From: Myxococcales bacterium | GTDB lineage: Bacteria; Myxococcota; Polyangia; Polyangiales; Polyangiaceae | DNA: 43,811 nt | Reading direction: 5' to 3' | Assembly (NCBI GenBank): GCA_003151595.1 | Contig: PLXW01000022.1 | Location: 219,804-263,614, forward strand | In this document: in pieces, positions 3,614 through 40,508 of the stretch | Layout of the letters: each line of letters begins with the position of its first letter | How positions within the stretch are numbered: the first letter of the stretch is position 1 | Program-made: the position numbers and the translations under genes | The notes under the pieces: model-generated | The model's input: the letters and a program-made list of their open reading frames with translations, nothing else | The model's database searches: none | What the model was told of the DNA's origin: nothing

Positions 3614-3686
3614 TGGAGCAAAGGGGGATCGAACCCCTGACCTCTGCATTGCGAACGCAGCGCTCTCCCAGCTGAGCTATTGCCCC
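3614..3686 (-). tRNA. tRNA-Ala (anticodon CGC)
   Basis: The complement folds into a full cloverleaf of 73 nt: acceptor GGGGCAA/TTGCTCC, D arm GCTC-AGCTGGGA-GAGC, anticodon stem CTGCG/TGCAG with loop TTCGCAA (anticodon CGC, decoding GCG), a 5-nt variable loop and T arm AGGGG-TTCGATC-CCCCT, with A as discriminator. The G3:U70 pair, the identity element of tRNA-Ala, is present. The 3' CCA is not fully encoded (ACC then G). Confidence 0.95.
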
Positions 3687-4909: not shown

Positions 4910-6148
4910 GTGGCTCTCGTCGTACAAAAATTCGGCGGTACGTCGGTCGGCTCGATCGACCGGATCCGGAACGTCGCTCGTCGCTGCCTCGCCGCGCAGC
5001 GCGAAGGGAACGACGTCGTCGTCATCGTGAGCGCGATGAGCGGCGAGACGAACCGCTTGCTCGGGCTCGCGCATCAAGTGTGCGAAGTGCCGGACGCCCG
5101 CGAGATGGACGCCATCGCCGCCACGGGTGAGCAGATCTGCGCCGCGCTCACCGCGATGGCGATTCAGACCGAAGGGGGCAAAGCGCGGTCGCTCGTCGGC
5201 CACCAGGTGCGCATCCTCACCGACGGCGCGTTCACCAAGGCGCGCATCAAGACGATCGACGGGTCGAAGATCTTCGAGACGTTGAAGCAGGGGGAGATCG
5301 CCGTCGTCGCCGGGTTCCAGGGGGTCGACGAGTACGGCAACATCACGACGCTCGGGCGCGGCGGATCGGACACGTCGGCCGTCGCCATCGCTGCGGCCAT
5401 CGGCGCCAGCGCGTGCGAGATCTTCACGGACGTCGACGGCGTCTACACCACGGACCCGAACGTCTGCCCGTCGGCCAAGAAGATCGCGCGCATCTCGTTC
5501 GAAGAGATGCTCGAGCTCGCGTCGCTGGGCGCGAAGGTTCTGCAGATTCGAAGCGTGGAGATCGCCATGAAGTACGGAGTTCCCATTCACGTGCGCACTT
5601 CTTTTTCAGATGCTCCGGGCACGTGGGTCACGGGTGAAGACAAGACGCTCGAAGAGGTCGTGGTCGCCGGCGTGGCGTACGACAAGAACGAAGCGCGCGT
5701 TCACATCGTGGCGGTCGACGACAAGCCGGGCGTGGTCGCGCAGCTCTTCAGCGCCATCGCCGAGAAGAACCTCAGCGTCGACATGATCATCCAGAACGTC
5801 ACGCGCGGCGACGAAGCGCGCACCGACGTCACGTTCACCGTGTCGAAGACCGATCTTCAGCGCGTGAAGTCGTTCATCGAGGAGACGGCGAAGGCGCTCG
5901 GCGCGCGCGAGGTTCGTTACGACGAGGACATCGTGAAGATCTCGATCGTCGGGCTGGGCATGCGCTCGCACGCCGGCGTCGCGGCGAAGATGTTCCGGTT
6001 GCTCGCCGACGAGCAGATCAACATTCAGGCGATCTCGACGAGCGAGATCAAGATCAGCTGCCTCGTCGCGGCGAAGTACACCGAGCTCGCGGTGCGCGCG
6101 TTGCACGACGGGTTCGGCCTCGGCGATCGCCCGGCCGCCGCGAAGTAG
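4910..6148 (+). CDS. lysC: Aspartate kinase
   Basis: A 412-residue aspartokinase, the usual length for the monofunctional class with a catalytic domain plus two ACT domains. KFGGTSV lies at residues 7-13; the kinase core carries [15 protein letters not shown] and [15 protein letters not shown] domains occupy about 265-335 and 345-405 and include [26 protein letters not shown] and [36 protein letters not shown]. It phosphorylates L-aspartate, the first step to Lys, Thr, Met and diaminopimelate, with feedback control by the ACT domains. The start codon is GTG. It is convergent with the outer-membrane gene, only 13 nt separating the stops. Confidence 0.96.
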
Positions 6149-6161
6149 CTACCAGCCGCGT

Positions 6162-6713
6162 TCACCAACCCCAGATGTATTCGACGCGAAGCCCGAGCGT
6201 CGTGAACTCGGGGTACGTGCTCATCTTCGAGACGAACATGTGCTGTCGGTACGCGAAGCCGACGGCCCACGATCGCGTGATCTCGTAGTCGAGCCCCACG
6301 GCGAGCTGCGCGTCGGGCGTCCAGAACGGATGCGCGACCCGCGCGCCGGCGAAGTACGCCGGGCCGAGGAGGACGCCCGCGTACGGCACCCAGCGAACGA
6401 CGTCGAACACGTACGTGACCCCCGCGCCGCCGGTGGCGACGATGCCGGGCTGGGGAGGGGGAGCCTTCGACGGGCCTTGCGCGGTGAGCCCGGCGCCGCC
6501 GACCTCGGCGACGAAGTTGAACGCGTCGGAGATGCCGTACGTGTAGTGGAGGCCGAGGTCGATGCCGGCGCGCGTCTTGGCGCTGTCGGTCTGGGAGAGC
6601 GCGCCGCCGGCCTCGAGGCCGAAGTGCTGCTGGCGCTCGTAGGCCGAGGCCGAGCGCGCGGTGAAGAGCGCGCACACGCCAGCGAGCGAAATCGCAATCG
6701 GACCTGCGCGCAT
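6162..6713 (-). CDS. Outer-membrane beta-barrel protein
   Basis: A 183-residue protein with a clean Sec signal peptide (cleavage after SASA, residue about 24) and a series of alternating amphipathic strands separated by turns: AGIDLGLHYTYGI, AFNFVAEVGGAG, GVTYVFDVVRWVPYAGVLLG, AQLAVGLDYEI, WAVGFAYRQHMFV, and a final TTLGLRVEYIWGW ending in an aromatic residue. This is typical of a small 8-strand OmpA/OmpW-like barrel, though no specific family is claimed. The frame stays open upstream, but the ATG at 6713 is chosen because it starts the signal peptide. Confidence 0.75.
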   Translation of the reverse strand: MRAGPIAISLAGVCALFTARSASAYERQQHFGLEAGGALSQTDSAKTRAGIDLGLHYTYGISDAFNFVAEVGGAGLTAQGPSKAPPPQPGIVATGGAGVTYVFDVVRWVPYAGVLLGPAYFAGARVAHPFWTPDAQLAVGLDYEITRSWAVGFAYRQHMFVSKMSTYPEFTTLGLRVEYIWGW

Positions 6714-6949
6714 CGACTTCGCGAATAGCACATCGGCGACGCGGCTGGCGCCTTGGACGAGATCCTCGAGTCGTGCTTCGAGGTGCACCTCGCCGCGGCC
6801 GCGCGGACTTTCCTTTCGCGGCGCGCGGCGGCGCGGCTCGCTGTGGCATGGGACACGCGCGAACGTGGCCATGACGCTAGGGACCTCCGCGTTTCGGCGG
6901 AAATCGCGCTGCGCGCGGGTGGCTTGCGAGCCGCTCTCGGCGCCGGCCC

Positions 6950-7744
6950 GTGAGCGTTCTTGCACCAGCGTATCGGCCGCGGGGTCCCACCGAGACGGTG
7001 CTCTACGCGGTCGTCCACCGCCATCTCGAGACCTTCCTCGCATACGCGCGCGAGACCTACGCCGCACCATTGCCTCACTACGTCGAAGAAGAGCTCCGCA
7101 GCTACTTGCGCTGCGGCGTCTTCGCGCACGGCTTCGTCCGCGCGCACTGCGAAGCGTGCGGTCACGATCTGCTCGTCGCATTCTCTTGCTTGGGTCGTGG
7201 TGTCTGCCCGAGCTGCGCGGGACGACGCATGTCGAAGGTGTGCACCAAGTCGACGGGCGACGCGGCGGACGAAGTGCCGACGCAGCGCGAATCGCGAGGC
7301 CCGACGAGCGCGTCCCGCCGTGACCGTCGAAGCGACGCTACGCCGTCGCGCACCGTGTCTTCGACTCTCGTCGCGAGCTCACGCTCCGACGACGAAGCGA
7401 CTCGGCCCGCTCCTCCCCCCGCGAGCCTCGCAGCTCACGCAGGAGACCGCGTCGCGCTGCTGACACCGAACGTCCTCGGCGTGAAGCATTGGAGTCGGCT
7501 GCTCGGGGGCCTTCTCTATGCGGCATCCCCGCGGCTCGATTGGCCGACGCTCCTTCGCCGCAGCTTCGGCACCGACGTGCTCGCGTGCCCGAGCTGCGCG
7601 GGTCGCCTCCGTGTACTCGGCGAAGTCACCGAGCCCGCGACGGTCCGCCTCGTGCTGGAGAGCCTCGGCATGCCCGCGGAAGCGCCGCGAGCCGCGCGCG
7701 CCCGCGACCCGACCGAATTGCTCGGCGACACGACGGACGAGTGA
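6950..7744 (+). pseudogene. IS91-family transposase remnant with internal deletion
   Basis: The 264-residue frame joins two ends of an IS91-type rolling-circle transposase. Residues 1-95 match the N-terminal zinc-binding part (VLYAVVHRHLETFLAY, LRCGVFAHGFVRAHCEACGHD, CPSCAGRRMS with four Cys). Residues about 175-250 match the C terminus (LLTPNVLGVKHWSRLL, LDWPTLLRRSFGTDVLACP, CAGRLRVLGEV). The central portion with the catalytic HUH and Tyr motifs, roughly 150-250 residues in intact relatives, is missing and replaced by a low-complexity Ser/Arg/Thr stretch. It cannot be an active transposase. A GTG at 6950 is the first start in frame. Confidence 0.85.
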
Positions 7745-7800
7745 CGAAGCCCCGGCGCGGCGCGAGCGGCTCGAGCGGCGAGGCCTGCCTTCGACCTGCT

Positions 7801-7909
7801 CAAATCGGCCCGCGTTCCAGCGAGAGCGTACCGCGCGAACGACGATCGCATAACGTCGTTTCCGTCTACCCGGCTTCGCGTGGCGCGCCCCCTTGCACTA
7901 CCTTCCCGC
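7801..7909 (+). repeat. Dispersed ~109-bp repeat, copy A
   Basis: Begins CAAATCGGCCCGCG and ends CTTCCCGC. It is identical over all 109 bp to copy B (12407-12515). It contains a perfect 7-bp inverted repeat, AACGACG/CGTCGTT with a 9-nt loop. It lies 56 nt after the IS91 transposase stop and directly before a second IS91 fragment, that is, where an IS91 terminal end would be expected. Confidence 0.9.
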
Positions 7910-7940
7910 TGACGCCCCGCACGGCCCCAGCGGACCGGTG

Positions 7941-8015
7941 CAGCTACTGCTCACCCCAAACGTCGTCGGCCAGCACTGGAGTCGATTGCTCGGAGCGCTC
8001 CTCTACGCGCCGGAA
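7941..8015 (+). pseudogene. Second IS91 transposase fragment (C-terminal piece)
   Basis: About 25 codons read LLLTPNVVGQHWSRLLGAL and LYAPE, matching the same segment of the remnant at 7453-7527 (LLTPNVLGVKHWSRLLGGLLYA) but with many silent and some replacement differences. It is therefore a separate IS91 copy, not a local duplication. It lies between repeat copy A and the Kelch lipoprotein and is in the same frame as it. The 7745-8057 stretch contains only this fragment and copy A. Confidence 0.75.
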
Positions 8016-8057
8016 TGCTCGATGACGACCGCGCGCCCGAGCGTATTGGTGAAGAAC

Positions 8058-9113
8058 ATGCGGCGCGTGCTTCTCCTCCTCGCTCTCCTCCTCGCCTTTC
8101 TCTGCGAAGGCGCTTGCCGCCCGCGATCCGAGTCGACGCCCGTTCACGTCGCGGCGCCGGTCGTCGCCCCCGTCGCGCTGCCGAGCGCGCCCTCGTCGTC
8201 GCTTGATGCGGGACACGCGACCGCGCACGGAGGATGCGTTCGAGTCGGACGTCTCGCCGATTGGCGGTACAGCCCGAGCGTCAGCGCGCTCGACGGCGGT
8301 CGGGTGCTCGTCGCCGGCGGAAGGCACCACGACGGCGTGGACTTCCTCCGGTCGGCCGAGATCTGGGACCCGACGTCGGCCACGTTCCGATCGGCGGCGT
8401 CGCTTCACGATGAACGCGCGATGCACGCCGCGGTCACGCTCCGCGACGGCCGCGTGCTCGTCGCAGGGGGATTGGCGACGCGCGTCGAGCTCTACGACCC
8501 GAAGCGGAGCTCGTGGGCGATCGTGGGCGCGCTGCGAACGCCCGTCGTGACCCCATTCGCAGGGCTCCTCTCGGACGGCAGGGTGCTCCTCGCGGGCGGG
8601 GACCTTCAATGGAAGGGCGCCTTCTCGAGTGAGACGAATCTGTTCGATCCGTCGCAATCCAAGCTCGTGCGAGGCCCGGACCTCGCGCCGGACGAAGGGG
8701 GCAGCGAGCCCGGAGTCGCGATCACGCTCGATGGGAAACTCTTGCTCGTTCCGGGCGCGTCCACCGGCGAAGCGAAGGATCTCGCGGGGTGGCTCTTCGA
8801 TCCGAGCGTCGGCGCGTATTCGAAGTGGACCGGAAAGGACGCTCGCCTCGCCGCCATCCGCGCTCTCGACACCGCGCCGCAAGGTCCTTGGACGCTGATC
8901 AGCGCCGGCGACGGCACGGCGCTTCACCCGGCCATCGCCGTCTCCGACGACTCGGTACGGCGCTACGACGCAGCGGCGGGAGAATGGATCGCGACGGCGC
9001 GATTCCTCGACAAGCACGAGGCGGGCGGCGCCGTAGCGATCGACGAGCACACGGTCTTCGTCGTTGGAGGGTTGGAAGAGGTCGAGGCCACCGCCGAGCG
9101 CTGCACCTTCTGA
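8058..9113 (+). CDS. Kelch-repeat secreted lipoprotein
   Basis: A 351-residue protein. The N terminus MRRVLLLLALLLAFLCEGAC is a strong hydrophobic signal with Cys20 as a possible lipidation site. After an Ala/Pro/Ser linker come about five Kelch-like blades marked by GGRVLVAGGR, DGRVLVAGGL, DGRVLLAGGD, DGKLLLVPGA and HTVFVVGGL, each followed by a Leu/Ala-x-x-E-x-x-D-P segment. Such beta-propellers usually bind proteins or glycans at the cell surface. The open frame extends upstream through the IS91 fragment, so the original 5' region may have been replaced by IS sequence; the ATG at 8058 starts the signal peptide. A truncated dispersed repeat starts 1 nt after the stop. Confidence 0.8.
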   Translation: MRRVLLLLALLLAFLCEGACRPRSESTPVHVAAPVVAPVALPSAPSSSLDAGHATAHGGCVRVGRLADWRYSPSVSALDGGRVLVAGGRHHDGVDFLRSAEIWDPTSATFRSAASLHDERAMHAAVTLRDGRVLVAGGLATRVELYDPKRSSWAIVGALRTPVVTPFAGLLSDGRVLLAGGDLQWKGAFSSETNLFDPSQSKLVRGPDLAPDEGGSEPGVAITLDGKLLLVPGASTGEAKDLAGWLFDPSVGAYSKWTGKDARLAAIRALDTAPQGPWTLISAGDGTALHPAIAVSDDSVRRYDAAAGEWIATARFLDKHEAGGAVAIDEHTVFVVGGLEEVEATAERCTF

Positions 9114-9114
9114 C

Positions 9115-9135
9115 CAAATCGGACCGCGTTCCAGC
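9115..9135 (+). repeat. Truncated copy E of the dispersed repeat
   Basis: Twenty-one bases matching the first 21 bases of copies A and C with one or two changes (CAAATCGGACCGCG then TTCCAGC). Similarity stops after 9135. It lies directly after the Kelch gene TGA and has the same orientation as the other copies. Confidence 0.6.
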
Positions 9136-9164
9136 CCGGTCGCTCACGGCGCGTCCTCTGCGTG

Positions 9165-9314
9165 GAGAGTGCCGTCTTCCACGAGGAGAGAGCTCTCTTC
9201 GACGAGAAGAGTGCGGTCTCTCGCCACCAGAAGACTGGTCTCTTCCACGCGGAGAGTGCGCTCTTCCACGCGGAGACACGACTCTTCGCGCGAAAGACCG
9301 GACTCTCCTCTAGC
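9165..9314. repeat. Degenerate 21-bp tandem array, seven units
   Basis: Units start at 9165, 9186, 9207, 9231, 9252, 9273 and 9294, with one extra codon before the fourth. The pattern is roughly GAG-AGT-GCG-CTC-TTC-CAC-GCG. Because the unit is 21 bp, three frames are open and repetitive; on the minus strand one reads as heptads like LLVEESS and LRVEERT. Many units can pair CTCTTC with GAAGAG, giving short hairpins. It sits between the convergent Kelch and PIN toxin genes; no start or clear gene is assigned. Confidence 0.75.
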
Positions 9315-9337
9315 AACACGTTCTCGCCGCCGACGAT

Positions 9338-9742
9338 TTACGGCGATTCGATCGCGCAGAGGCCCCCCGCCTTGCGTCCGATCTCGAGGTCGAGCGTGAC
9401 GAGGGGAAGCCCGCGCGAGACGGCGACCCACACGTATGCGGCGTCCGCCGCGCGGAGGCGTGTCTTGGCAGCGACCGCGGAGATCGCTCGCGCCGCGCGC
9501 GGTCCGATCGTGATGAGCTTGCGCGCGGCGAGATCGCGCTCGAGATAACGTCGGGCGCTCGCCGGTGAGGCTTGCCCTCGGACGAGCGCCGAGGTGACTT
9601 CGAAGTCGAAGATCGCGGGTACGACGACGTCATCGGCGCCCGTGAGCAGCGCAGCGAGACGATTGCGCGCCGCCGCGTGCGACGGTTCCGAAGGCCGAAC
9701 GGCCGCGACGGCGACCGAGGCGTCGAGCACGTAGGTCGTCAC
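9338..9742 (-). CDS. vapC: PIN-domain toxin (VapC-like ribonuclease)
   Basis: A 134-residue PIN-domain protein with the expected acidic residues: Asp7 in VLDASV, Glu48 in FDFEVTSAL, Asp100 in LRAADAAYVWVA and Asp118 in PLVTLDLE. VapC toxins are Mg-dependent RNases that inhibit translation. Length is normal for the family. The GTG start overlaps the antitoxin stop by 4 nt (GTGA), the usual translational coupling of such modules. All active-site positions are intact, so it may be functional. Confidence 0.9.
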   Translation of the reverse strand: MTTYVLDASVAVAAVRPSEPSHAAARNRLAALLTGADDVVVPAIFDFEVTSALVRGQASPASARRYLERDLAARKLITIGPRAARAISAVAAKTRLRAADAAYVWVAVSRGLPLVTLDLEIGRKAGGLCAIESP

Positions 9743-10020
9743 CGTCGCCCTTCGAGCAAGTCGGCGACGGCCGAGAAGCTCTCGTCGCCCGCCATCTCGC
9801 GCGCGAGCTCGTCGAGACGAGATTCAGCCTCTTCGCGTGTCATGGAGGGTCGCCGACGTCTGCCGCGAGCCACGCCGATCGGAACCACAGCCGCCGCGGG
9901 CTTGCCGTGTCGCAGGATGATGATCTTCTTCCCGCGATGCTCGGCCTGGTCGACCACCTCCGACAGGTGCGCCTTCACGTCCGCGAACGATCGCTTTTCC
10001 ACGTGACCAATATGACCCAT
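9739..10020 (-). CDS. Phd/YefM-type antitoxin
   Basis: A 93-residue protein. Residues 7-45 (VEKRSFADVKAHLSEVVDQAEHRGKKIIILRHGKPAAAVVPI) match the Phd/YefM fold that binds operator DNA; the C-terminal half is charged (SMTREEAESRLDELAREMAGDE) as expected for the toxin-binding tail. It is the first gene of the module and probably autoregulates it. ATG at 10020 is chosen; a GTG a few codons later (VEKRS) is an alternative. The divergent GST gene begins 86 nt away. Confidence 0.88.
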   Translation of the reverse strand: MGHIGHVEKRSFADVKAHLSEVVDQAEHRGKKIIILRHGKPAAAVVPIGVARGRRRRPSMTREEAESRLDELAREMAGDESFSAVADLLEGRR

Positions 10021-10105
10021 GCGCGCATTCCGCGCCAGAGCCACCCCGCCATCGCGAGCGCCCGCACGCTTGAAGCGCGCCGCGCGGGCCCGTAGCTTCC
10101 GTCGC

Positions 10106-10723
10106 ATGAGCATGAGCCGACCGACGCTGATCTACTTCGACGCCCCCGTGAGCCGCGGCGAGGAGTGCCGCCTGGCGCTCCACATCGCGGGGGTCGACTT
10201 CGAGGACGTCCGCATCAAAGGGGACGACTGGCCCGGGCTCAAACCGAGCACGCCGTTCGGGAGCATGCCGGTGCTCGAGATGCCCGGGCACGCGCCGCTC
10301 GCGCAGTCGAATGCGATCCTCGTCCTCATCGGACGCCAGTACGGGCTGCATCCGAAGGACGACTTTCAGGCCGCGCGCCACGAAGCGATGATGTCCCACG
10401 TCGAGGACCTCCGCGCGGCGGTCTCGCCGACGTTGCGAATGAAGGACGCCGAAGAGAAGAAGAGCGCGCGCGAGACGCTCGCCGCATCGTACCTGCCGAC
10501 GTGGGCCGAGCAGACCGAGAAGCAGATCGGGCACGGCGCGTTCTTCGCGGGAGGGAAGCTCAACGTCGTCGACCTGAAGCTGTACGTCGTCGTCCGCTGG
10601 TTCTTGGGGGGGAAGCTCGATCACATCCCGACGACGATCTTCGCGAAGTACCCGAAGCTCCTCGGCGTGCACGACGCCGTCCGCGACGACGCGCGCGTGA
10701 AGGCCTGGTACGCGAAGCACTAG
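10106..10723 (+). CDS. Glutathione S-transferase
   Basis: A 205-residue GST. The N-terminal thioredoxin-like domain (residues 1-80) has TLIYFDAPVSRGEECRLAL, the cis-Pro segment GSMPVLEMPGH and the glutathione-binding LAQSNAILVLIGRQYGL, where Gln-Ser contacts the gamma-glutamyl moiety. The C-terminal all-helical domain (90-205) includes LNVVDLKLYVVVRWF with the conserved N-capping Asp. The overall pattern is sigma/prostaglandin-D-synthase-like. Substrate is not evident. ATG at 10106; a second ATG two codons later is possible. Confidence 0.9.
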   Translation: MSMSRPTLIYFDAPVSRGEECRLALHIAGVDFEDVRIKGDDWPGLKPSTPFGSMPVLEMPGHAPLAQSNAILVLIGRQYGLHPKDDFQAARHEAMMSHVEDLRAAVSPTLRMKDAEEKKSARETLAASYLPTWAEQTEKQIGHGAFFAGGKLNVVDLKLYVVVRWFLGGKLDHIPTTIFAKYPKLLGVHDAVRDDARVKAWYAKH

Positions 10724-10765
10724 CAGGGCACCCGGTTCTGACGCGCACTCCGCGCGAGGCGAAGG

Positions 10766-12028
10766 TCACCCGAGCGGGAACGGCACGACGACTCCCTTGG
10801 CGTCGCCGACGAAGCTCGTCGTTCCCCGAATGCACGTGCTCACGTCGATCCCGTCGCACCCGGGGACCGTGAAGTCGATCGCCCGCACGATGTACGAGTG
10901 ACCCGTCGTCGGCTTGAACACCCACGGACTCCCGGTCGACGGGCAGCCGTTCACGGCGGTCCACTGCGTGTCGAGCGTCCCCTCGTCGACCCACCCACTC
11001 CCCGCGGTCACGTCGTCGACCCACATCTCGAGCGGGCGCTGCTGGCTGATGCAGTTGGTGACGTCGAGCTCCTTCACGCCCGGCGGGGGCTTCGTTCCGC
11101 TACCGCTCGGGGGGGGCAGCGTCTTCTGATACCAATTCAGGCCGACGCCCCAGGTCTGATCCCCCTTGACCAGGTAGTCACCCGCCGACTTATTCCACAG
11201 CGCGAACGTCGAGTTGTCCAGGTTCTGCCCCGGCGTTCCGTTGCCGACCACGTACCACTCGTAGACGGGCGTGTCCGACAGGACGAGATCGACGCCGAAG
11301 CTCTGCGTGCCATGCGCGAGCCACCCCGCGCCCCACACGCGAATCGCGATCGCTTCCCCCTTCATCAGCGGCCACGTCGAGCCGTCGCCTTGTCGTTCGC
11401 CCTTCGCGTTGTTTCCGGTGGACGGACCGAGGCCGAGGCTCACGCCCCACGTGCGGCTCTGCGTCTGGAGAAAATCGTTGCCGACGCTCAGCGGCGCGGC
11501 GAGGTCGTTCGTGAACGCCAGCCCTGACCACTCGATGGTCGCCGCCGGCGCACTCTGCGGGAAGGCGCTCGGGTCGGGGCGAACGGTGCACTGCTCCTTG
11601 GTGGCCGTGCTCATGCCGGTGCTCGAGGAGACGGCGACGATCAGGTAGCACTGCGCGCTCACGCCGTGATCGCTGTCCGGCCACGTGAACGTCGCGCCTG
11701 CCTTGTTCGGCTCGACGTGGAGCTGCTGCCAGTTCCAGCTCGCGTCGCGGCGATAGACGACGAACTGGTCGGCGGTCGCGTCGGGTGACACCCACTTCAC
11801 GAGCACCGACATCGCCGACGGCGTGAACGAATACGTCGGCGGCGCCGACGGCGGCGAGGGGAGCCCCTTGGTCGGCGGCGTGACGGGCGGAGGCCTCACG
11901 TTGAGCGCGTCGCTCTCCGACGCGGCGTCCTCCGTCGACGCCACGCATCCGGCGGCGAGGAGGCCGGTGCTCACGGGAACGGGGACGAGGGCGAGAGCGA
12001 GCAGCGATCGATGGACGACGGGGTGCAT
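10766..12028 (-). CDS. Secreted lipoprotein with fibronectin-like domain
   Basis: A 420-residue protein with a good lipoprotein signal ending LLAAGC and a Pro/Thr-rich linker (VRPPPVTPPTKGLPSPPSAPP). Residues about 65-145 look like a fibronectin type III fold (SVLVKWVSPDATADQFVVYRRD through QCYLIVAVSS). The remainder carries two related segments (TWGVSLGLGPSTGN and TWGVGLNWYQKTLP) and several Cys residues. No enzyme motif is seen. ATG at 12028 follows a purine-rich GGAGAAC. Confidence 0.75.
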   Translation of the reverse strand: MHPVVHRSLLALALVPVPVSTGLLAAGCVASTEDAASESDALNVRPPPVTPPTKGLPSPPSAPPTYSFTPSAMSVLVKWVSPDATADQFVVYRRDASWNWQQLHVEPNKAGATFTWPDSDHGVSAQCYLIVAVSSSTGMSTATKEQCTVRPDPSAFPQSAPAATIEWSGLAFTNDLAAPLSVGNDFLQTQSRTWGVSLGLGPSTGNNAKGERQGDGSTWPLMKGEAIAIRVWGAGWLAHGTQSFGVDLVLSDTPVYEWYVVGNGTPGQNLDNSTFALWNKSAGDYLVKGDQTWGVGLNWYQKTLPPPSGSGTKPPPGVKELDVTNCISQQRPLEMWVDDVTAGSGWVDEGTLDTQWTAVNGCPSTGSPWVFKPTTGHSYIVRAIDFTVPGCDGIDVSTCIRGTTSFVGDAKGVVVPFPLG

Positions 12029-12664
12029 GGTGGTTCTCCGGAGGCGCGCGGGGTGCGCGCTGGTCCCGGCCACTTCGCAAGAGACGCGCCATGCTGAGTG
12101 CAGCGCGTTTCGCGGGATTTGCGGGGAAGCCGCCGATGGAAAGGTGGGGTGTGGCGTTGCATGCGACGCGCACGGAGTGAACCCGGCCTACCCCAACGCG
12201 CTCTTCAACAGCGCCACCAACTCCCCCCACGCCTCCCCGCGTTCGTCGGATCCCCGCGCGTGGGGGAAGGCGGTCGTCCCCGCGAAGAGCGTGACTACAC
12301 GGTCGACAGTGCTCGCTCCGTTCGAGGTGAGCCTGTCGATGGTCTGGCACGACACGACGCCAGTACGGGTACGAGTCGCGCTCTGAGCGCACCAAGATGA
12401 GGACCTCAAATCGGCCCGCGTTCCAGCGAGAGCGTACCGCGCGAACGACGATCGCATAACGTCGTTTCCGTCTACCCGGCTTCGCGTGGCGCGCCCCCTT
12501 GCACTACCTTCCCGCCCGACGAGCGTACAAGGAACGGCCTTCGCCGAGGAGGATCGCGAGCGCGAGGCGAGCCCTCGGCGAGCGGCGAAGATCACGGCGG
12601 GCGATTGACACCTGTCACTGCGAATTCCATTGCCCGCGCGCGCGCTCGCCACAATAAATGCCGC
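12029..12664. other. Intergenic stretch with a possible gene remnant and repeat copy B
   Basis: No intact gene is seen. On the minus strand 12188-12330 reads as a protein-like tail (TVDRVVTLFAGTTAF, HARGSDERGEAWGELVALLKSALG) ending in TAG at 12188; it is open towards the repeat copy at 12407-12515 but has no recognisable start or family. It may be the 3' end of a gene lost when the repeat entered. From 12516 to the peptidase start is a spacer with a perfect TTGACA at 12605 but no convincing -10. Confidence 0.35.
12407..12515 (+). repeat. Dispersed ~109-bp repeat, copy B
   Basis: Identical to copy A across 109 bp, including the 7-bp inverted repeat. It ends 149 nt before the S9 peptidase start. 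No IS91 coding sequence is adjacent, showing the repeat can exist without it. Confidence 0.92.
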
Positions 12665-14797
12665 ATGCGAAGCCTCTCCCCGCGTGCCCCGCTCATCCTG
12701 ATTTCGCTCGTGGCCGCCGGCGTGCTCGCGTGCGGAAGCTCGCAGGCTCCCGCGCCACAGAGTCCTGCTCCGGCCCCCGCGCCGAGCGTCGCGCCGTCCG
12801 TGCCGGTCGCGCAAGCGAAGCCCGCGCCCGCCGCCCCCGCGACCGACGCGAGCCTCATCCCGCGCGAGATCCTCTTCGGCAACCCGGAGCGGGCCGCGCC
12901 GCAGATCAGCCCCGACGGAAAGTGGATCGCCTACCTCGCGCCGGTGGACGGCGTGCTCAACGTCGTCGTCGCGCCGCTGTCCGATCCGAGCAAGGCGACC
13001 CCCGCCACCCACGACACGTCGCGCCCGATCGACCAGTACATGTGGACGCGCGAGCCGAACGTCCTCATCTACTCGCAGGACACGAAGGGGGACGAGAACT
13101 TCCACGTCTACGCCGTGTCCGTGCCGGGCGGCGCCCCGAAGGACCTCACCCCCTACGCGAACACGCGCGCCGAGCCCCGCGACACATCGCCGAAGCATCC
13201 CGACGAGGTCGTGCTCGCGATGAACGATCGCGACCCGAAGTACCACGACTTCTACCGCGTGAGCCTGAAGACGGGCGCGCGCACGCTTCTCGCGAGGAAC
13301 GACGGCTACCGCGGCTTCGTCCTCGACGACGACTTCAAGGTCCGCCTGGCGGTGAAGTCGAACCCCGACGGCGGCAAGACATACTTCGCTCCGGGCGCGA
13401 AGAAGGAATTCGACGCGCCGTACATGACGGTGGCGTTCGAGGACATGCACTCGGTCGGAATGTCCGGCTTCGACGACAAGGGGAAGACGATCTACATGGT
13501 CGACGGGCGCGGGCGCGATACCGCAGCGCTCGTCGCGATGGACGCCGCGACCAAGAAGGTCACGGTGCTCGCCGAGGACGCGAAGAGCGACGTGTCGATC
13601 GGCCTCGCGGACCCGAAGACGCACAGGCCGCTCCTCGGGACGACCACGTACGACCGCAAGCGGTTCGTCGTCCTCGACAAGAGCTGGCAGGCGGACCTCG
13701 ATTACCTGAAGACCGTCGTCCCCGGCGCCGACTTCAGCCTCGACACGTGCAGCGACGACATGAAGCGCTGCATCGCGGCGTTCACCGTGTCCGACGGTCC
13801 GACGCGCTACTACGCGTACGATCGCGCGAAGCACAAAGCCGACTTCCTCTTCTCCGACAAGCCGAAGCTCGAGGGGCTCCCGCTGGCGAAGATGCTCCCC
13901 GTCACGATCCCCTCGCGCGACGGCCTCTCGCTCGTCTCGTACCTCACGCTCCCCGCCGGCTCCGACGCCGACGGCGACGGCAAGCCGGACCACGCGCTCC
14001 CGATGGTGCTCTTTGTCCACGGCGGGCCGTGGGCGCGCGACGAATGGGGATACGACGCCGATCACCAGTGGCTCGCCAACCGCGGCTACGCGGTGCTGAG
14101 CGTGAACTACCGGGGCTCGACCGGCTTCGGAAAGAAGTTCGTGAACGCGGCGAACCTCGAGTGGGCGGGGAAGATGCACGACGATCTGATCGACGCCGTC
14201 GCGTGGGCGACCAAGTCGGGCATCGCCGACGAGAAGAAGGTCGCGATCTACGGCGGCAGCTATGGCGGCTACGCCACGCTCGTGGGGCTCACGTTCACGC
14301 CGGCCACATTCGCGTGTGGCGTGGAGGTCTGCGGCCCGTCGAACCTCGAGACCCTCTTGCAGACCATCCCTCCGTATTGGGCGTCCGAGAAAGAGATGTG
14401 GGCGAGGCGCGTCGGCGACTCGCGCACCTACGATGGCAAGAAGCTGCTCGAAGCGCGGTCGCCGCTCACGCGCGCCGGCGCGATCACGAAGCCGCTCCTC
14501 ATCGGCCAGGGGGCGAACGATCCGCGCGTGAAGCAGGCGGAGAGCGATCAGATCGTGAAGAGCATGCAGGCCAAGGGGATCCCCATCTCGTACATCTTGT
14601 TCTCCGACGAGGGGCACGGGTTCGAGCGACCGGAGAACGGCAAGGCGTTCCGGGCGGTGCAAGAGACCTTCCTCGCGCAGTGCCTCGGCGGCAAATACCA
14701 ACCCGTCGGCGACGACTTCAAAGGCTCGACGATCGCGGTCCCGGCGGGAGCCGAGCAGGTGTACGGGCTCGAAGACGCGCTAAAGCAGCCCCGCTAG
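12665..14797 (+). CDS. S9-family prolyl oligopeptidase-like lipoprotein
   Basis: A 710-residue exported serine peptidase. A lipoprotein signal ends VLACGSS, followed by an Ala/Pro linker. Residues about 60-440 form a beta-propeller (QISPDGKWIAYLAP, repeated WTR/ Y-S-D-T segments); 450-700 are the alpha/beta-hydrolase domain. The catalytic triad is Ser532 in GGSYGGY, Asp619 in GANDPRV and His651 in EGHGF. HGGPWARDEWGYD marks the oxyanion region. The arrangement fits the S9C acylaminoacyl/dipeptidyl peptidase group, which cleaves short peptides. ATG at 12665 starts the signal; a TTG at 12605 in the same frame is less likely. GC content and codon use match the neighbours. Confidence 0.93.
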   Translation: MRSLSPRAPLILISLVAAGVLACGSSQAPAPQSPAPAPAPSVAPSVPVAQAKPAPAAPATDASLIPREILFGNPERAAPQISPDGKWIAYLAPVDGVLNVVVAPLSDPSKATPATHDTSRPIDQYMWTREPNVLIYSQDTKGDENFHVYAVSVPGGAPKDLTPYANTRAEPRDTSPKHPDEVVLAMNDRDPKYHDFYRVSLKTGARTLLARNDGYRGFVLDDDFKVRLAVKSNPDGGKTYFAPGAKKEFDAPYMTVAFEDMHSVGMSGFDDKGKTIYMVDGRGRDTAALVAMDAATKKVTVLAEDAKSDVSIGLADPKTHRPLLGTTTYDRKRFVVLDKSWQADLDYLKTVVPGADFSLDTCSDDMKRCIAAFTVSDGPTRYYAYDRAKHKADFLFSDKPKLEGLPLAKMLPVTIPSRDGLSLVSYLTLPAGSDADGDGKPDHALPMVLFVHGGPWARDEWGYDADHQWLANRGYAVLSVNYRGSTGFGKKFVNAANLEWAGKMHDDLIDAVAWATKSGIADEKKVAIYGGSYGGYATLVGLTFTPATFACGVEVCGPSNLETLLQTIPPYWASEKEMWARRVGDSRTYDGKKLLEARSPLTRAGAITKPLLIGQGANDPRVKQAESDQIVKSMQAKGIPISYILFSDEGHGFERPENGKAFRAVQETFLAQCLGGKYQPVGDDFKGSTIAVPAGAEQVYGLEDALKQPR

Positions 14798-14845
14798 AGG
14801 ATCGGCTGATCGCGGTGCTGCGGAAGCAGTCGCGCGGGTAGGGGC

Positions 14846-15223
14846 TTACGACGAGCGTTTCAGCTCGACGGCGATGACGCGAAGCTCTCTGGTCCCGATG
14901 TTGTGCACTCAGTGTGGCGTGAGAGGCGGTCCCCACAGCGCGCTGCCGTCCGTGGGTTTCGCCGCCAGGGTCCGCGAATCGAGGAGAACCTTCCCCTCCG
15001 CGTCATAGCGAACGAAGTCGCTCCAGCTGAGCACGTAGAGCGCCGCGGGCCACTCGTGCGCGTGCACGGCGGTCCGTTCGCCCGCTCCGACGTGCGTGTC
15101 GAGAACCCTGACGTGCTCGTTCTCCAGGAGCACGGCGTGATGCTCCGGGTCGGCGCTCATCGCGTCGAGTGAGTGACTCCCTCCCGCTCGTTCGTCCGTC
15201 TTGCTCATCATGCTTCGTCGCAT
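14846..15223 (-). pseudogene. Cupin-like protein gene interrupted by in-frame TGA
   Basis: The first 104 codons encode a small cupin-like protein (HHAVLLENEHVRVLDTHVGAGERTAVHAHEWPAALYVLS) ending GPPLTPH, then TGA at 14909-14911. After the stop the same frame continues with VHNIGTRELRVIAVELKRSS and a TAA at 14846, which is the typical last strand and tail of such cupins (the HxVENIG/LRVIAVELK pattern). The missing residue is a single codon, so one base change would restore the gene. Real start may be one of the ATGs at 15223, 15211, 15208 or 15160. Readthrough or sequencing error is possible. Confidence 0.8.
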
Positions 15224-15332
15224 TCTAGAACAGCGCCGTCGGGCGCAGACGCCGATCCGCGTGCACCTCGAGAGTCCCGGCGCTCAGCTACGACGACCGG
15301 GTGACATGCGGGGTCTCGTTCGCACGGGGGAC

Positions 15333-15439
15333 CAAATCGGCCCACGTTCCAGCGAGAGCGTACCGCGCGAGCAAAGATCGCATACCGTCGTTTCCGTCTA
15401 GCCGGCTTCGCGTGGCGCGCCCTTGCACTACCTTCCCGC
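15333..15439 (+). repeat. Dispersed ~109-bp repeat, copy C
   Basis: Matches copies A and B with about six substitutions and a 2-bp deletion near the 3' end. The stem of the internal inverted repeat is damaged. It ends 66 nt before the GTG of the membrane-protein gene. Confidence 0.9.
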
Positions 15440-15505
15440 TGATTCGCGGACGAGCGGCGAGGCGCGGAGCGGAGTAGAACGCGATCACTTCCGAGGAGCA
15501 TCGCT

Positions 15506-16273
15506 GTGACTTCGCCCGCTTCCGCCCCGCCGCCCTACGATCCCTATTTGCCACCGCTCAACGCCGATGGTGAGCGGCACGGTCGGCGTTCGAGCGCGCC
15601 AGCGATCGTCACGCTGCTCTACGGGGCCGCGATCATGGCCAACCTTTCGGCGCGCGCCGTGGTGGCCTACAGCGCGGACCCCGGCGTCCGGGTGATCACA
15701 GGGGCGGCGATTACGGCGAGCGGGACGGTGAGTACAGCACTCGCGCTGGTTTGGATCTACGTCGCATGGAACGGGATTCCCGAGACACATCGAGGAACCA
15801 TCTCTCCTCGACGAGCCGTGCTCTCGTTCTTCATTCCCGTCTACAACGCGTTCTGGGTCTTCGCCGTCAACGCGGCTCTCTGCGACACGATGAATGGCAT
15901 TCTGGAACGGACTGGCTCGTCGCGCCGCGCGCCGCGCCTCCTCGGAGGAATCGCTGGCGCGGCGTGGCTCGGATCGCTCGTGATTGCGAGCGCGTTCGTC
16001 AGCGCTGGCAGGACCGCGGGCTGGGCCTTCTACCTGCTCACGCTGCTCGCACCGGCCGTCACGGGTGGGCTTTGGTTCACGTACATGCTGCGGTGCGATC
16101 TCGCGCGCAGCGTCGTCGCCTCGTTGAGGGATCGGCCGAATGCGCTCGGGACCCCGCGACTATCGCAAATTCAACGCGAGTCCGGTCCGGGAGTGGGCAC
16201 GGCGATCGCGCTCTGGGGCCTTGTCGTGTTCGGGCTTGCGTGCTGGCAGTTTCTGACGCCGGTTCCACGCTGA
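15506..16273 (+). CDS. Polytopic membrane protein (DUF4328-like)
   Basis: A 255-residue protein with a Pro-rich N-terminal tail (PPPYDPYLPPL) and about five or six membrane helices beginning near residue 33. WIYVAWNGIPETHRGTISPRRAVLSFFIPVYNAFWVF resembles the signature of DUF4328-type membrane proteins (W..P..N...P.....S...A...FFIP..N...P). Function is unknown. The GTG start is supported by GAGGAG 8 nt upstream. Confidence 0.75.
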   Translation: MTSPASAPPPYDPYLPPLNADGERHGRRSSAPAIVTLLYGAAIMANLSARAVVAYSADPGVRVITGAAITASGTVSTALALVWIYVAWNGIPETHRGTISPRRAVLSFFIPVYNAFWVFAVNAALCDTMNGILERTGSSRRAPRLLGGIAGAAWLGSLVIASAFVSAGRTAGWAFYLLTLLAPAVTGGLWFTYMLRCDLARSVVASLRDRPNALGTPRLSQIQRESGPGVGTAIALWGLVVFGLACWQFLTPVPR

Positions 16274-16442
16274 GTCAGTTCAGCGCACTGCGCGCGGCCT
16301 TCGGCCGTGCTCGTGGGTTCCAGCGCGACCCGTGCGCGCGAGCGGGTCGCGTATGCCGAGCACGGGTCCAGCGGACCTCGGGACGACCCGAGAGAGAGGC
16401 CCGAACGGGCCGAGCGGTACTGCGCACGAGATGATCCTGTTC

Positions 16443-16690
16443 TCAGGTTCGCTAGGTCTGGACCGGCGAACACGATCGTCTGGACCTTGGACCAGTAGGT
16501 CTGGACCTCGGTACCGCTAGGTCTTGTGCGGAGTACCGGTGCTAGCGGTTCCAGGTTCGCTAGGTCTGGTACGGCGAACAAGATGCAGCGGACCCGCGAA
16601 CAAGATGGAGCGAACCTGGGTTAGCTAGGTCTGGTGCGCGGGTCCGGTGGTAGCGAACCTGGGGACGGTAGGTCTTGTAGGAAGGTCTAG
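16443..16690. repeat. Degenerate repeat field with CTAG-containing units
   Basis: Short words recur in both orientations: TTCGCTAGGTCTGG at about 16448 and 16556, GCTAGGTCT at 16516 and 16624, GCGAACCTGG (its reverse arm) at 16610 and 16653, and GCGAACAAGATG at 16574 and 16596. CTAG appears six times in about 240 bp, in a genome stretch where it is otherwise rare. No frame is convincingly coding. Confidence 0.7.
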
Positions 16691-16806
16691 ACCGGGGGTG
16701 CGGAGGACGGGACGGGAGGTGCGGGAGTGCGGAGGGGGGCGTGGGCGAGACACGACGGGAGATGCGCCGAACGAGAACCTAGGGACGCGGGACGTCAGCG
16801 ACGGCT

Positions 16807-16967
16807 CAAATCGGCCCGCGTGGCCGACAAAATTGAGTAGGCAGAGCTGCTCGTTCGGTCAACGGGCGCGCGTTCCAGCGAGAGCGTACCGCGCGAACGA
16901 AGATCGCATGACGTCGTTTCCGTCTACCCGGCTTCGCGTGGCGCGCGCCCTTGCACGACCTTCCCGC
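16807..16967 (+). repeat. Dispersed repeat, copy D, split by a 52-bp insertion
   Basis: The first 14 bases match copy A (16807-16820), then 16821-16872 is foreign sequence, and similarity resumes at 16873 (TTCCAGCG) to the end with about four substitutions. CGCG flanks both sides of the insertion, so it may carry a short target duplication. Confidence 0.85.
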
Positions 16968-17050
16968 TCCACTCAGGGGTTTCCGACGGTGCCGAGAAAC
17001 GCACGCGCCGTGGGGTGAAGGCGCCACCCGTCGGTGCCGATGCCCGAGCC

Positions 17051-21580: not shown

Positions 21581-23545
21581 TCAGCGCGCCGGCTCGGCGA
21601 GCGCTCGGTCGACGAGCCGCTTGAAGCTCTTGTACGGCATCGCTCCGTCCAGGAAATACCCGTTGATGAAGAACGCCGGAGCGCCTTGCAGCCCCGCCGC
21701 GTCGGCCGCGTGCACGTCGGCGTCGACCGCGTCCTTGTGCGTGTGCCCGTCGAGCGACGCCGCCCACTTCTTCATGTCGAGCCCCAGCGTCTTGGCGTAG
21801 CCGTCGAGCGCGTCGCGCTGGAGCGCGCCGTCGACCCCCTGGTTCGCGAAGAGCAGCGTGTGCATCTTCCAGAACCCCGCTTGCCCCTTCTGCGCCAGCG
21901 CTTCGAGCGAGGCCTCGGCGGCGAGCTGCGCGTCCGGATGAATCTGCGTGAGCGGGAGGTTGCGCCACACGATCTTCACGCGCCCCGGGTACGCCGCGAC
22001 GAGCTTGTCGAGCGACTCTTCGGCGCGCTTGCAGTACGGGCACTGGAAGTCGGCAAACTCCTGCACGACGATCTTCGCCTTCGCCGCGCCGCGCTCCGGC
22101 GCGTTGGCTCCCGGCGGGGCGACGTCTTTCTTTTCGGGGCCCGACATCGCCACGCCGTCGGCGATCAGCGTGTCGTAGATCGCGCTCGCCGCGACCCCCT
22201 TGGCCGCCAGCGCCTTGGTCTTCGTGAGCTCGTCGTCGATGATCGTGGCGAACGCTTCGAGCGGCTGCGACCCCACGATCCGCCGCCCGTCGATGAAGAA
22301 GTGCGGCGTGCCGGTGGCGTGGAAGCCGTCGGCCACCGCGTCGTCATCGTCGATCGACTTGGCGTACTTCTTCGTCGCGATCGCCGCCTTCACCTTCGCC
22401 ACGTCGAGCTTCAGGTCGCGCGCGATCGACTCCAGGTCCGCCGGCTCGAGGCCCTTCGCCGCGAACAGCGCGTCGTGCGCCGTCCAGAATCCGGCGTCGC
22501 CTTTCTCGGCGCGCGCCTCGAGCGCCAGCTCCGCGGCCGGCTCGGCGTGCGGGTGGAACGGGAGCGGCTCGTCTTTCCAGACGACGCGCACCGAGTCGCC
22601 GTACTTCGCGCGCACCTTGGTGAGCGTCTCGTCGGCGCGCCGGCAGTACGGGCACTGGTAGTCGCCGAACTCGACGATCGTGATCGGCGCATCCTTCGCG
22701 CCGCGCACCGGGCTCGTGCCGACCGGGACCCTGTAGACGTTCGTGTCTTCCTTGCGCGCGGTCTCTTCTTCGTTCGCTTGCGGCTTGAAGTTCACGGCGG
22801 CGGCGGCGGCGTACACGGCGCTTCGCGCGGTGCCGGCGGAGACGAGCAGGTTCGCTTGCGTCATCGCGGCGACGACGACCTGCTCGAACGCTTCGTACGG
22901 CTGCGCGCCGGTGATCCACGCGCCGTTCACCAGGAACGCGGGGGTCCCGTCGACGCCGAGCTTCTGCGCGGTCTCGAGATCGCGCTGCACCTTCGCCGCC
23001 CATGCGCCGCTCTGCGCGCCGCGGGCGAACGCGCTCGGGCTCACGCCCGCGTCGGCCGCCCACTTCGCGTACGAGTCGGCGCCGAGCGCGCGCTGATTGG
23101 CGAACGCGCTCGCCAGGAACTTCCAGAACGCCTCGTTCCCCCCGATCGCCCGGACCCCTTCGGCCGCTTCCGCCGCCGGGCGCGCGTTCTCATGGAACGG
23201 CAGCGGCGCGTGCTTCCACACGACGCGCAGCTTCTCGGGTCCGTACGTGCTCTCGAGCTTCTCGAGCGTGGAGGCCGTGCGCGCGCAGAACGGACACTGG
23301 ATGTCCTCGAAGGCGACGATCGTCACCAGCGCATCGCGGCTCCCCCACGTCGCGTCATCGGGCGCGATGGGGACCACGGCTTTCTCTTCGCTGGGAGCGC
23401 CTGTCGCGGCGACCGCCGGCGATCCCGAAACTTTCGCATCTGCGTTCGTCGCGCTCTGCGGGGCCACCGGCGCCTTCGCCGAGCCTCCGCACGCGAGGAG
23501 CGATGCCATCACACCAACCAAGCCAAGCGTCGAACTGCGATTCAT
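21581..23545 (-). CDS. Triple DsbA-like (thioredoxin_4) lipoprotein
   Basis: A 654-residue exported protein made of three DsbA/DsbG-type domains. The lipoprotein signal ends LLACGG. Each domain has an N-terminal strand plus active-site pair: CPFC (Cys84/Cys87), CPYC (Cys298/Cys301) and CPYC (Cys502/Cys505), and a downstream cis-Pro loop (GTPAF at 200, GTPHF at 412, GAPAF at 621) with FFING or VNG and AQP. PLPFHP and FWKF/FWTAHDALF segments recur. Domains 1 and 2 diverge more than the second gene's set. Each could oxidise or isomerise disulfides in the envelope. It lies downstream of the paralogue 23720-25777. Confidence 0.93.
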   Translation of the reverse strand: MNRSSTLGLVGVMASLLACGGSAKAPVAPQSATNADAKVSGSPAVAATGAPSEEKAVVPIAPDDATWGSRDALVTIVAFEDIQCPFCARTASTLEKLESTYGPEKLRVVWKHAPLPFHENARPAAEAAEGVRAIGGNEAFWKFLASAFANQRALGADSYAKWAADAGVSPSAFARGAQSGAWAAKVQRDLETAQKLGVDGTPAFLVNGAWITGAQPYEAFEQVVVAAMTQANLLVSAGTARSAVYAAAAAVNFKPQANEEETARKEDTNVYRVPVGTSPVRGAKDAPITIVEFGDYQCPYCRRADETLTKVRAKYGDSVRVVWKDEPLPFHPHAEPAAELALEARAEKGDAGFWTAHDALFAAKGLEPADLESIARDLKLDVAKVKAAIATKKYAKSIDDDDAVADGFHATGTPHFFIDGRRIVGSQPLEAFATIIDDELTKTKALAAKGVAASAIYDTLIADGVAMSGPEKKDVAPPGANAPERGAAKAKIVVQEFADFQCPYCKRAEESLDKLVAAYPGRVKIVWRNLPLTQIHPDAQLAAEASLEALAQKGQAGFWKMHTLLFANQGVDGALQRDALDGYAKTLGLDMKKWAASLDGHTHKDAVDADVHAADAAGLQGAPAFFINGYFLDGAMPYKSFKRLVDRALAEPAR

Positions 23546-23593
23546 CGAAATCGATTTCTCTTCGGACGTTGTTCAGAGCACCTGTCCCGCGCG

Positions 23594-23683
23594 GCCCCTC
23601 ACCCCCGGCCCCTCTCCCGCAAAGGGAGAGGGGTGTCTGATCTCGCCCCTCTCCCCTTGCGGGAGAGGGGTTGGGGTGAGGGC
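23594..23683. repeat. REP-like palindrome pair upstream of the first triple-DsbA gene
   Basis: CCCTCACCCC and CCCTCTCCCGC-AAA-GGGAGAGGGG form one hairpin, and CCCCTCTCCCC-TTGC-GGGAGAGGGG with a trailing GGGGTGAGGG a second; the two are mirror images. It resembles the REP/BIME-type extragenic palindromes common in proteobacteria. It lies between the two DsbA genes, its first CCCT being 54 nt from the start codon of the downstream gene. Confidence 0.85.
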
Positions 23684-23719
23684 ACGCGAGCGGAGTGGTC
23701 TCAGTTACCGCAGCGTCAG

Positions 23720-25826: not shown

Positions 25827-25932
25827 GCCCTCACCCCCGCCCTCTCCCGCAAGGGGAGAGGGGCGGAGAGCGAGATCGCGGGTATGGCTCCCCTCTCCCT
25901 TTACGGGAGAGGGGTTGGGGGTGAGGGGCGCG
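25827..25932. repeat. REP-like palindrome pair upstream of the second triple-DsbA gene
   Basis: The same two-hairpin design (CCCTCTCCCGC-AA-GGGGAGAGGGG, then CCCCTCTCCCTTTACGGG with AGAGGGG and GGGGTGAGGGG), separated by 25 bp instead of 12. Its CCCT is again 54 nt from the start codon of the adjacent DsbA gene, although the intervening sequence is unrelated to the other copy. Confidence 0.85.
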
Positions 25933-40374: not shown

Positions 40375-40427
40375 CCTCCCTTGCCTCGCCTTCGGCGAAT
40401 CGTGCTGGCGCACGACGGCGATTAGCT

Positions 40428-40508
40428 CCCGGCGGGAGCTGGGGAGTCCCCGCGGGAACTAATTAGGTCCCCGCGGGAGCTGGGGGTTCCCCGCGGGAGC
40501 TGGGGGCT
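40428..40508. repeat. Four-unit ~20-bp tandem repeat
   Basis: Units of about 20-21 bp start at 40428, 40448, 40469 and 40489; the last two are CCCCGCGGGAGCTGGGGG followed by TT or CT, and the second is altered to GAACTAATTAGGT. Each contains the palindrome CCCGCGGG. It follows the hairpin pair in the same spacer. Confidence 0.85.

Follow-up and report, generated by a model that had tools for sequence, protein, structure and literature searches.

The window analysed here, a stretch of 43,811 nucleotides (nt) from contig PLXW01000022.1 of a Myxococcales bacterium, contains a short repeat of about 110 nt. Copies A to D and a stub, E, are interspersed with genes over 9.2 kb, and the debris of an IS91-type insertion sequence (IS) surrounds copy A (Table 1). 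Repeat finding in the window, followed by a profile derived from the copies, returned A and B at an E-value of 3.5e-36, the core of D at 3.9e-34 and C at 7.1e-34 (nhmmer), all on the plus strand; beyond these four, the profile search of the window gave no further match at E 0.1. The unit looks like a real, small dispersed element that is apparently undescribed and apparently non-coding.

Copies of the repeat

A first-pass annotation, made from the letters of the window, had described A and B as identical for 109 bp, C and D as diverged, and E as a 21-bp stub, all in one orientation within about 9 kb. Each part of this description was confirmed. The identity of A and B reaches 2 nt (CT) beyond the 109 nt on the left and 0 nt on the right, for a total of 111 nt. 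Over the 96 columns that run from GTTCCAGC as far as the right end of the unit, A matches C at 89 and D at 92. Taken alone, E was not significant in nhmmer (E 0.27), yet it matches the left end of the unit at 20 of 21 positions, as compared to a best match of 17 of 21 to the left-end 21-mer over 100 simulated windows; when any 21-mer of the unit was allowed, 40 simulated windows gave 19 of 21 at best. A 19-nt left-end pattern, allowing up to 3 mismatches, had 5 matches in the window, all within the repeat family, where 0.01 were expected. The chance that copies fall within a span as short as 9.2 kb is about 0.03 for four points or 0.008 for five, figures to be read with the fact that the region was chosen for its copies. 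The GC content of the copies (64-66%) is below that of the window (69%).

Table 1. Copies of the repeat and IS91-type transposase remains in the window
Feature	Position	Strand	Description
Copy A	7799..7909	+	111 nt with the leading CT; 109 nt spanning CAAATCGG to CTTCCCGC
Copy B	12405..12515	+	Same sequence as A for 111 nt
Copy C	15333..15439	+	101 of 109 aligned columns identical to A, 6 mismatches, 2 gap columns
Copy D	16805..16967	+	Left-end piece 16805-16821; 52 additional nt 16822-16873; nhmmer core 16861-16967
Stub E	9115..9135	+	21 nt of the left end of the unit; begins 1 nt past the stop codon of the kelch-repeat gene
IS91-type transposase remnant 1	6950..7744	+	PF14319 3.9e-13, no PF04986; alignment of relatives, tblastn
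IS91-type transposase fragment 2	7911..8009	+	C-terminal piece; tblastn, best E 4.9e-05 with P0039; secure part 7947-8009

Flanks of 60 nt, compared without gaps, were only 18-35% identical in all six pairs of A to D. Because these flanks are unrelated, the copies moved; duplication of larger segments was not their origin. The first-pass annotation had held the ends to be constant. The left end, CAAATCGG, is indeed common to all five copies and the right end to A through D; however, the dinucleotide before the left end is CT in three copies (A, B, and D) and AC in the other two, and D is split by its additional 52 nt. In D a 17-nt left-end piece is followed by these 52 nt, bordered by CGCGT on both sides, and then by the core, an arrangement that could be either an interrupted unit or a stub adjoining a unit.

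Anatomy and distribution of the unit

No terminal inverted repeats were found in unit A, where the two exact inverted pairs of at least 6 nt are both internal. Comparison of the flanks by eye revealed no target duplication, in that no matching stretch of at least 3 nt lies directly at both ends of A to D. A classical miniature inverted-repeat transposable element (MITE) does not fit, since both terminal inverted repeats and a target-site duplication are missing. MITEPsy1 (100 nt), for example, has terminal inverted repeats of 18 nt and duplicates 4 nt of its target (PMC3189936); the unit is like such MITEs in its size, lack of genes, and restricted distribution, but unlike them in those two features.

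An inverted repeat (AACGACG/CGTCGTT) had also been pointed out as conserved in A and B. All 7 of its pairs are intact in those two copies. C has lost 2 of the 7 and D has lost 1, and the three distinct sequences show no change that would compensate, so a conserved palindrome was rejected outside A and B. Repetitive extragenic palindromes (REPs) span a few tens of nt. Like REPs and REPINs, the unit is small, intergenic and, in A and B, palindromic; unlike them, it does not conserve the palindrome in C and D, and it lacks the conserved hairpin by which a Y1 transposase would recognise a REP or IS200/IS605-type element. Fold energies were not outstanding against shuffled sequences, whether of DNA (z from 0.28 to 2.83 for A and C, both strands) or of RNA (z for A, C, and the D core of -1.31, -0.89, and -0.33 on the plus strand and 0.22, 1.08, and -0.35 on the minus strand). 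Rfam reported only a tRNA (3614-3686) in the window at gathering score and, around copy A up to E 10, two matches (E 5.1 and 9.4) that both fell far under their gathering scores. A structured RNA or riboswitch was rejected on this basis.

One plus-strand frame is free of stop codons in A to D (frame +1 of A, matching the frame of the D core and that of C as far as its 2-nt indel). This frame does not exclude a protein, but every substitution that separates A from the D core (4) or from C (6) alters the amino acid (counted by eye). Three-frame translations searched against 5.8 billion proteins gave 28 candidates of about 59-189 amino acids, none at E ≤ 1, and 113 of about 163-518 amino acids, none at E ≤ 10. 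With all ten substitutions nonsynonymous and no protein match, a protein-coding unit was rejected, and a coding role seems unlikely.

Outside the window, an exact 19-mer common to A through D had a single match in 84,980 species genomes, in a Bacteroidota metagenome-assembled genome where just 21 nt agree, and we read it as a probable chance match; being limited to one exact 19-mer, the scan would let diverged relatives escape. A scan of 2.9 million viral contigs found no match to the same 19-mer, and the DNA patterns tried there, three in all, gave 0 matches. Blastn with the unit at E 1 likewise found nothing among 72,556 records of plasmids and 50,697 of phages. The literature searched contained no account of the repeat. 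The earlier impression that the family was undescribed agrees with that literature and with these searches.

Origin of the repeat

Copy A lies between two pieces of an IS91-type transposase. Remnant 1 retains the zinc-binding N-terminal domain and the C-terminal part of a transposase, but by comparison with relatives its catalytic middle (Y2_Tnp) is absent; it thus resembles IS91-family transposases (PF14319 and PF04986) in the C-terminal part without possessing their catalytic Y2 domain. Of 5420 candidates, 499 were relatives at E ≤ 0.001, and among the best 120 of these 499 the closest was 99% identical over 65% of the remnant. Proteins P0001 to P0003, encoded in ENA contigs of up to 226 kb, show 90-99% identity to 63-65% of it. 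The C-terminal part is 78-82% identical to that of three relatives (P0006, P0039, and P0062). The stop codon of remnant 1 ends 54 nt ahead of the 111-nt copy A, placing the right end of A 165 nt past that stop, and fragment 2 follows copy A within 1-43 nt. Fragment 2 was matched by 8 of 12 relatives, with alignments starting at 7911 (one), 7920 (one), and 7947-7953 (six). When these 12 relatives were used as queries with default filters, the rest of the window had no IS91 match at E 1e-3; with filters off, the matches listed included many scattered ones of low complexity, among them some in ordinary genes with E between 1e-3 and 1e-4, and the default-filter search was relied upon.

Two plasmids of one Bdellovibrio strain encode a protein matching the C-terminal part of the remnant at 39-41%, and the DNA that they have in common stops 208 nt past the stop codon; with the 165 nt at copy A, this counts for the IS91-type origin considered below. 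In tblastn searches of plasmids, the C-terminal part matched 405 records, P0006 at least 5000, and the S9 peptidase encoded between A and D 290; all were below 60% identity, with no near relative among the matches listed. Three IS91 queries against the viral contigs gave 0, 1, and 0 confirmed loci, the single locus (L002; residues 44-75, 41%) being judged irrelevant. Among loci retrieved for the ends of IS91 elements, L005-L007 have one annotated context in common.

The first-pass annotation had proposed that the unit moves or copies on its own. Movement is supported by the sharp ends, the unrelated flanks, the identity of A and B, and the restriction of IS91 coding similarity to the surroundings of A; independence from IS91 is doubtful, for copy A is placed like an IS91 3' tail with a second IS91 fragment right behind it, and the unit may be the 3' end of a known IS, a case that the annotation itself had named as refuting. 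Our leading interpretation, which we hold tentatively, is that the unit may be non-autonomous, a small mobile sequence that depends for its movement on an IS91-type (rolling-circle, HUH) transposase. The proposed sequence of events is as follows: the right end, CTTCCCGC, would correspond to the origin end of an element of the IS91 family; there, a transposase of IS91 type acting in trans would nick and peel off a single strand; transfer would halt about 109 nt further on, at a surrogate terminus on the left, ahead of CAAATCGG, without traversing the whole element; and the strand would be inserted near a GAC-type tetranucleotide, with no target duplication. Copy A would then be the retained tail of the IS91 remnant, B a recent solo copy, and C and D older solo copies, while E and the front of D would be decayed left-end pieces. 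The assignment of the right end as an IS91 origin, the one-ended mechanism, and the identity of the mobilising transposase are points that we infer. The lack of terminal inverted repeats and of a visible target duplication fits a derivative of an IS91 right end. The right end common to A through D may correspond to that of an IS91-family element. The absence of target duplication is a trait of the IS91 family.

Precedent comes from IS801, an IS91-family element of Pseudomonas syringae. Among its trap insertions described in PMC3189936, right-end fragments of 229, 360, and 679 nt made up 26.3% of the total, and their left ends fell at a tetranucleotide resembling the left end of IS801 itself (GCAC for the 679-nt fragment); the target set given there is GAAC, GGAC, CAAG, and CGAC. 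In nature, a 229-nt fragment was found to interrupt ISPsy3, also of the IS91 family (PMC3189936), which is paralleled by the IS91 sequence around copy A. The unit is like the IS801 fragments in being short, with a constant right end, a recurrent fixed left end, no inverted repeats, and possibly a target-like tetranucleotide on the left. It is unlike them in being smaller (109-111 nt, less than 229), in the variable distance to the tetranucleotide, in having left-end stubs, and in having no visible parent right end.

Tetranucleotides of the IS801 target set precede four of the copies: CGAC at 7792-7795 in A (5 nt from CAAATC), GGAC at 12401-12404 in B (2 nt away), GGAC at 15329-15332 in C (0 nt from the unit), and CGAC at 16799-16802 in D (4 nt from CAAATC). 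Stub E is preceded by TGAC (9111-9114), which includes the stop codon of the kelch-repeat gene. Four of the five copies thus have GGAC or CGAC among the 10 nt that precede CAAATC, against a background of 0.17 per 10-mer for the four-member set. The probability of at least 4 of 5 by chance is about 0.0036 (binomial, calculated by hand), a value uncorrected for the nine tetranucleotides, both ends, and one width that were inspected, and the enrichment is only suggestive of a rolling-circle origin.

Several observations weigh against this interpretation. The tetranucleotide has no fixed place, standing at 0, 2, 4, or 5 nt, and of the five right flanks just one carries a member of the set. Transfer started at the origin would not be expected to leave pieces that have a left end but no right end, as E and the front of D do. 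The hairpin has lost pairs in C and D, and the unit shows no similarity to the 3' region of an enterobacterial IS91. No intact parent element was seen within the window, and the missing half of fragment 2 was not found to the left of remnant 1 (6100-6960; best E 0.21). Even in P. syringae, one-ended transfer could account for no more than 2 of the 17 truncated IS801 fragments found in nature, and most natural fragments were attributed to DNA reorganisation (PMC3189936). Finally, the left end is the same in all copies, A included; copy A could therefore be an independent insertion beside IS91 debris.

This evidence against a one-ended origin makes a MITE-like element, driven by a different transposase of the IS200/IS605-REP or IS110 type, the main rival, although we consider it unlikely. 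Copy A would then lie beside IS91 debris by chance, dead transposons being safe landing sites. Terminal inverted repeats and target duplications are not needed in all members of these two types, and the lack of a visible target duplication, the hairpin in A and B, and the possession of both ends in common by the copies, A among them, would suit such an element. Its difficulties are a hairpin broken in C and weaker in D, ends with no fixed tetranucleotide, and the absence of such a transposase from 24 protein entries scanned with Pfam (some of them overlapping, and drawn from part of the ORFs of the window).

A more ambitious version of the rolling-circle reading, which we regard as rather unlikely, is that the unit could be a bacterial mini-element in its own right, with two fixed ends, a stable length of about 110 nt and a mainly intergenic location, a counterpart of the non-autonomous Helitrons belonging to a lineage outside the scanned genome collection. 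Trap experiments have already yielded solo right-end fragments of an IS91-family element (PMC3189936). If the rolling-circle reading is true, a family with fixed ends, one identical pair, and diverged members would mean that fragments of this sort are able to persist as elements and to spread, and the unit would offer a small natural substrate for asking what terminates rolling-circle transposition.

Recombination is an improbable source of the family as a whole. An old repeat could have been homogenised locally, with A and B made identical by recent conversion, which would account for the single orientation, the confinement to 9.2 kb, and the difference of C and D from the identical pair; conversion cannot, however, place copies in flanks that are 18-35% identical, and a transposition-like step would still be required.

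The first-pass annotation had also suggested that the copies might bring regulatory sequence, from the position of three of them 66-150 nt ahead of plus-strand genes. The positions are correct: A, B, and C stand 148, 149, and 66 nt ahead of starts at 8058, 12665, and 15506 (starts picked by eye). They would suit a conserved promoter, leader, or protein-binding region under selection, but nothing else spoke for regulatory cargo, and we judge this explanation quite improbable. Between 7700 and 17100 there were 0 sigma-70-like sites, where 0.4 were expected by chance in a scan that is weak for such DNA. A sigma-54-like motif in the unit (TGGC..TTGCA, compared by eye) was rejected for its wrong spacing in A to D. 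The RNA fold scores are unremarkable, and similarity is lost sharply at both ends. Stub E sits after a gene; D lies downstream of minus-strand ORFs and probably precedes no plausible plus-strand gene, the plus-strand ORF at 17015 being largely opposite a protein kinase gene.

Least probable of all is that the copies are attachment sites in direct repeat, left behind as cassettes or islands integrated one after another. This would explain the common orientation, the unrelated intervening DNA, and the stubs, but not the intervening genes on both strands, the lack of attC-like ends, or the lack of an integrase family in the eight ORFs scanned between A and D (three of which had no family match).

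Neighbouring genes and other repeats

The interval from A to D encodes a kelch-repeat protein, a PIN/Phd pair, a protein resembling glutathione S-transferases, the S9 peptidase, and three ORFs without a Pfam match; past D lies the protein kinase, with tetratricopeptide repeats (Pfam). The PIN-domain gene and its partner, similar to Phd/YefM antitoxins, are on the minus strand between E and B (9338-10113). Soon after stub E is an imperfect tandem array of a 21-nt unit, with 5.2 copies over 9164-9276 (region 9164-9287), and imperfect arrays of 21-22 nt units are present upstream of D at 16452-16616.

Farther along the window, two neighbouring long minus-strand ORFs at 21581-25777 have repeats common to their DNA. 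The first (21581-23545) encodes three DsbA-like thioredoxin stretches; the second (23720-25777) is flanked by GC-rich palindromic repeats of the CCCCTCTCCCGCAAGGGGAGAGGGG type (23594-23676 and 25840-25929). A GC-rich tandem repeat at 40421-40506 can be described as 1.9 copies of a 41-nt unit or, alternatively, as 4 copies of 20 nt.

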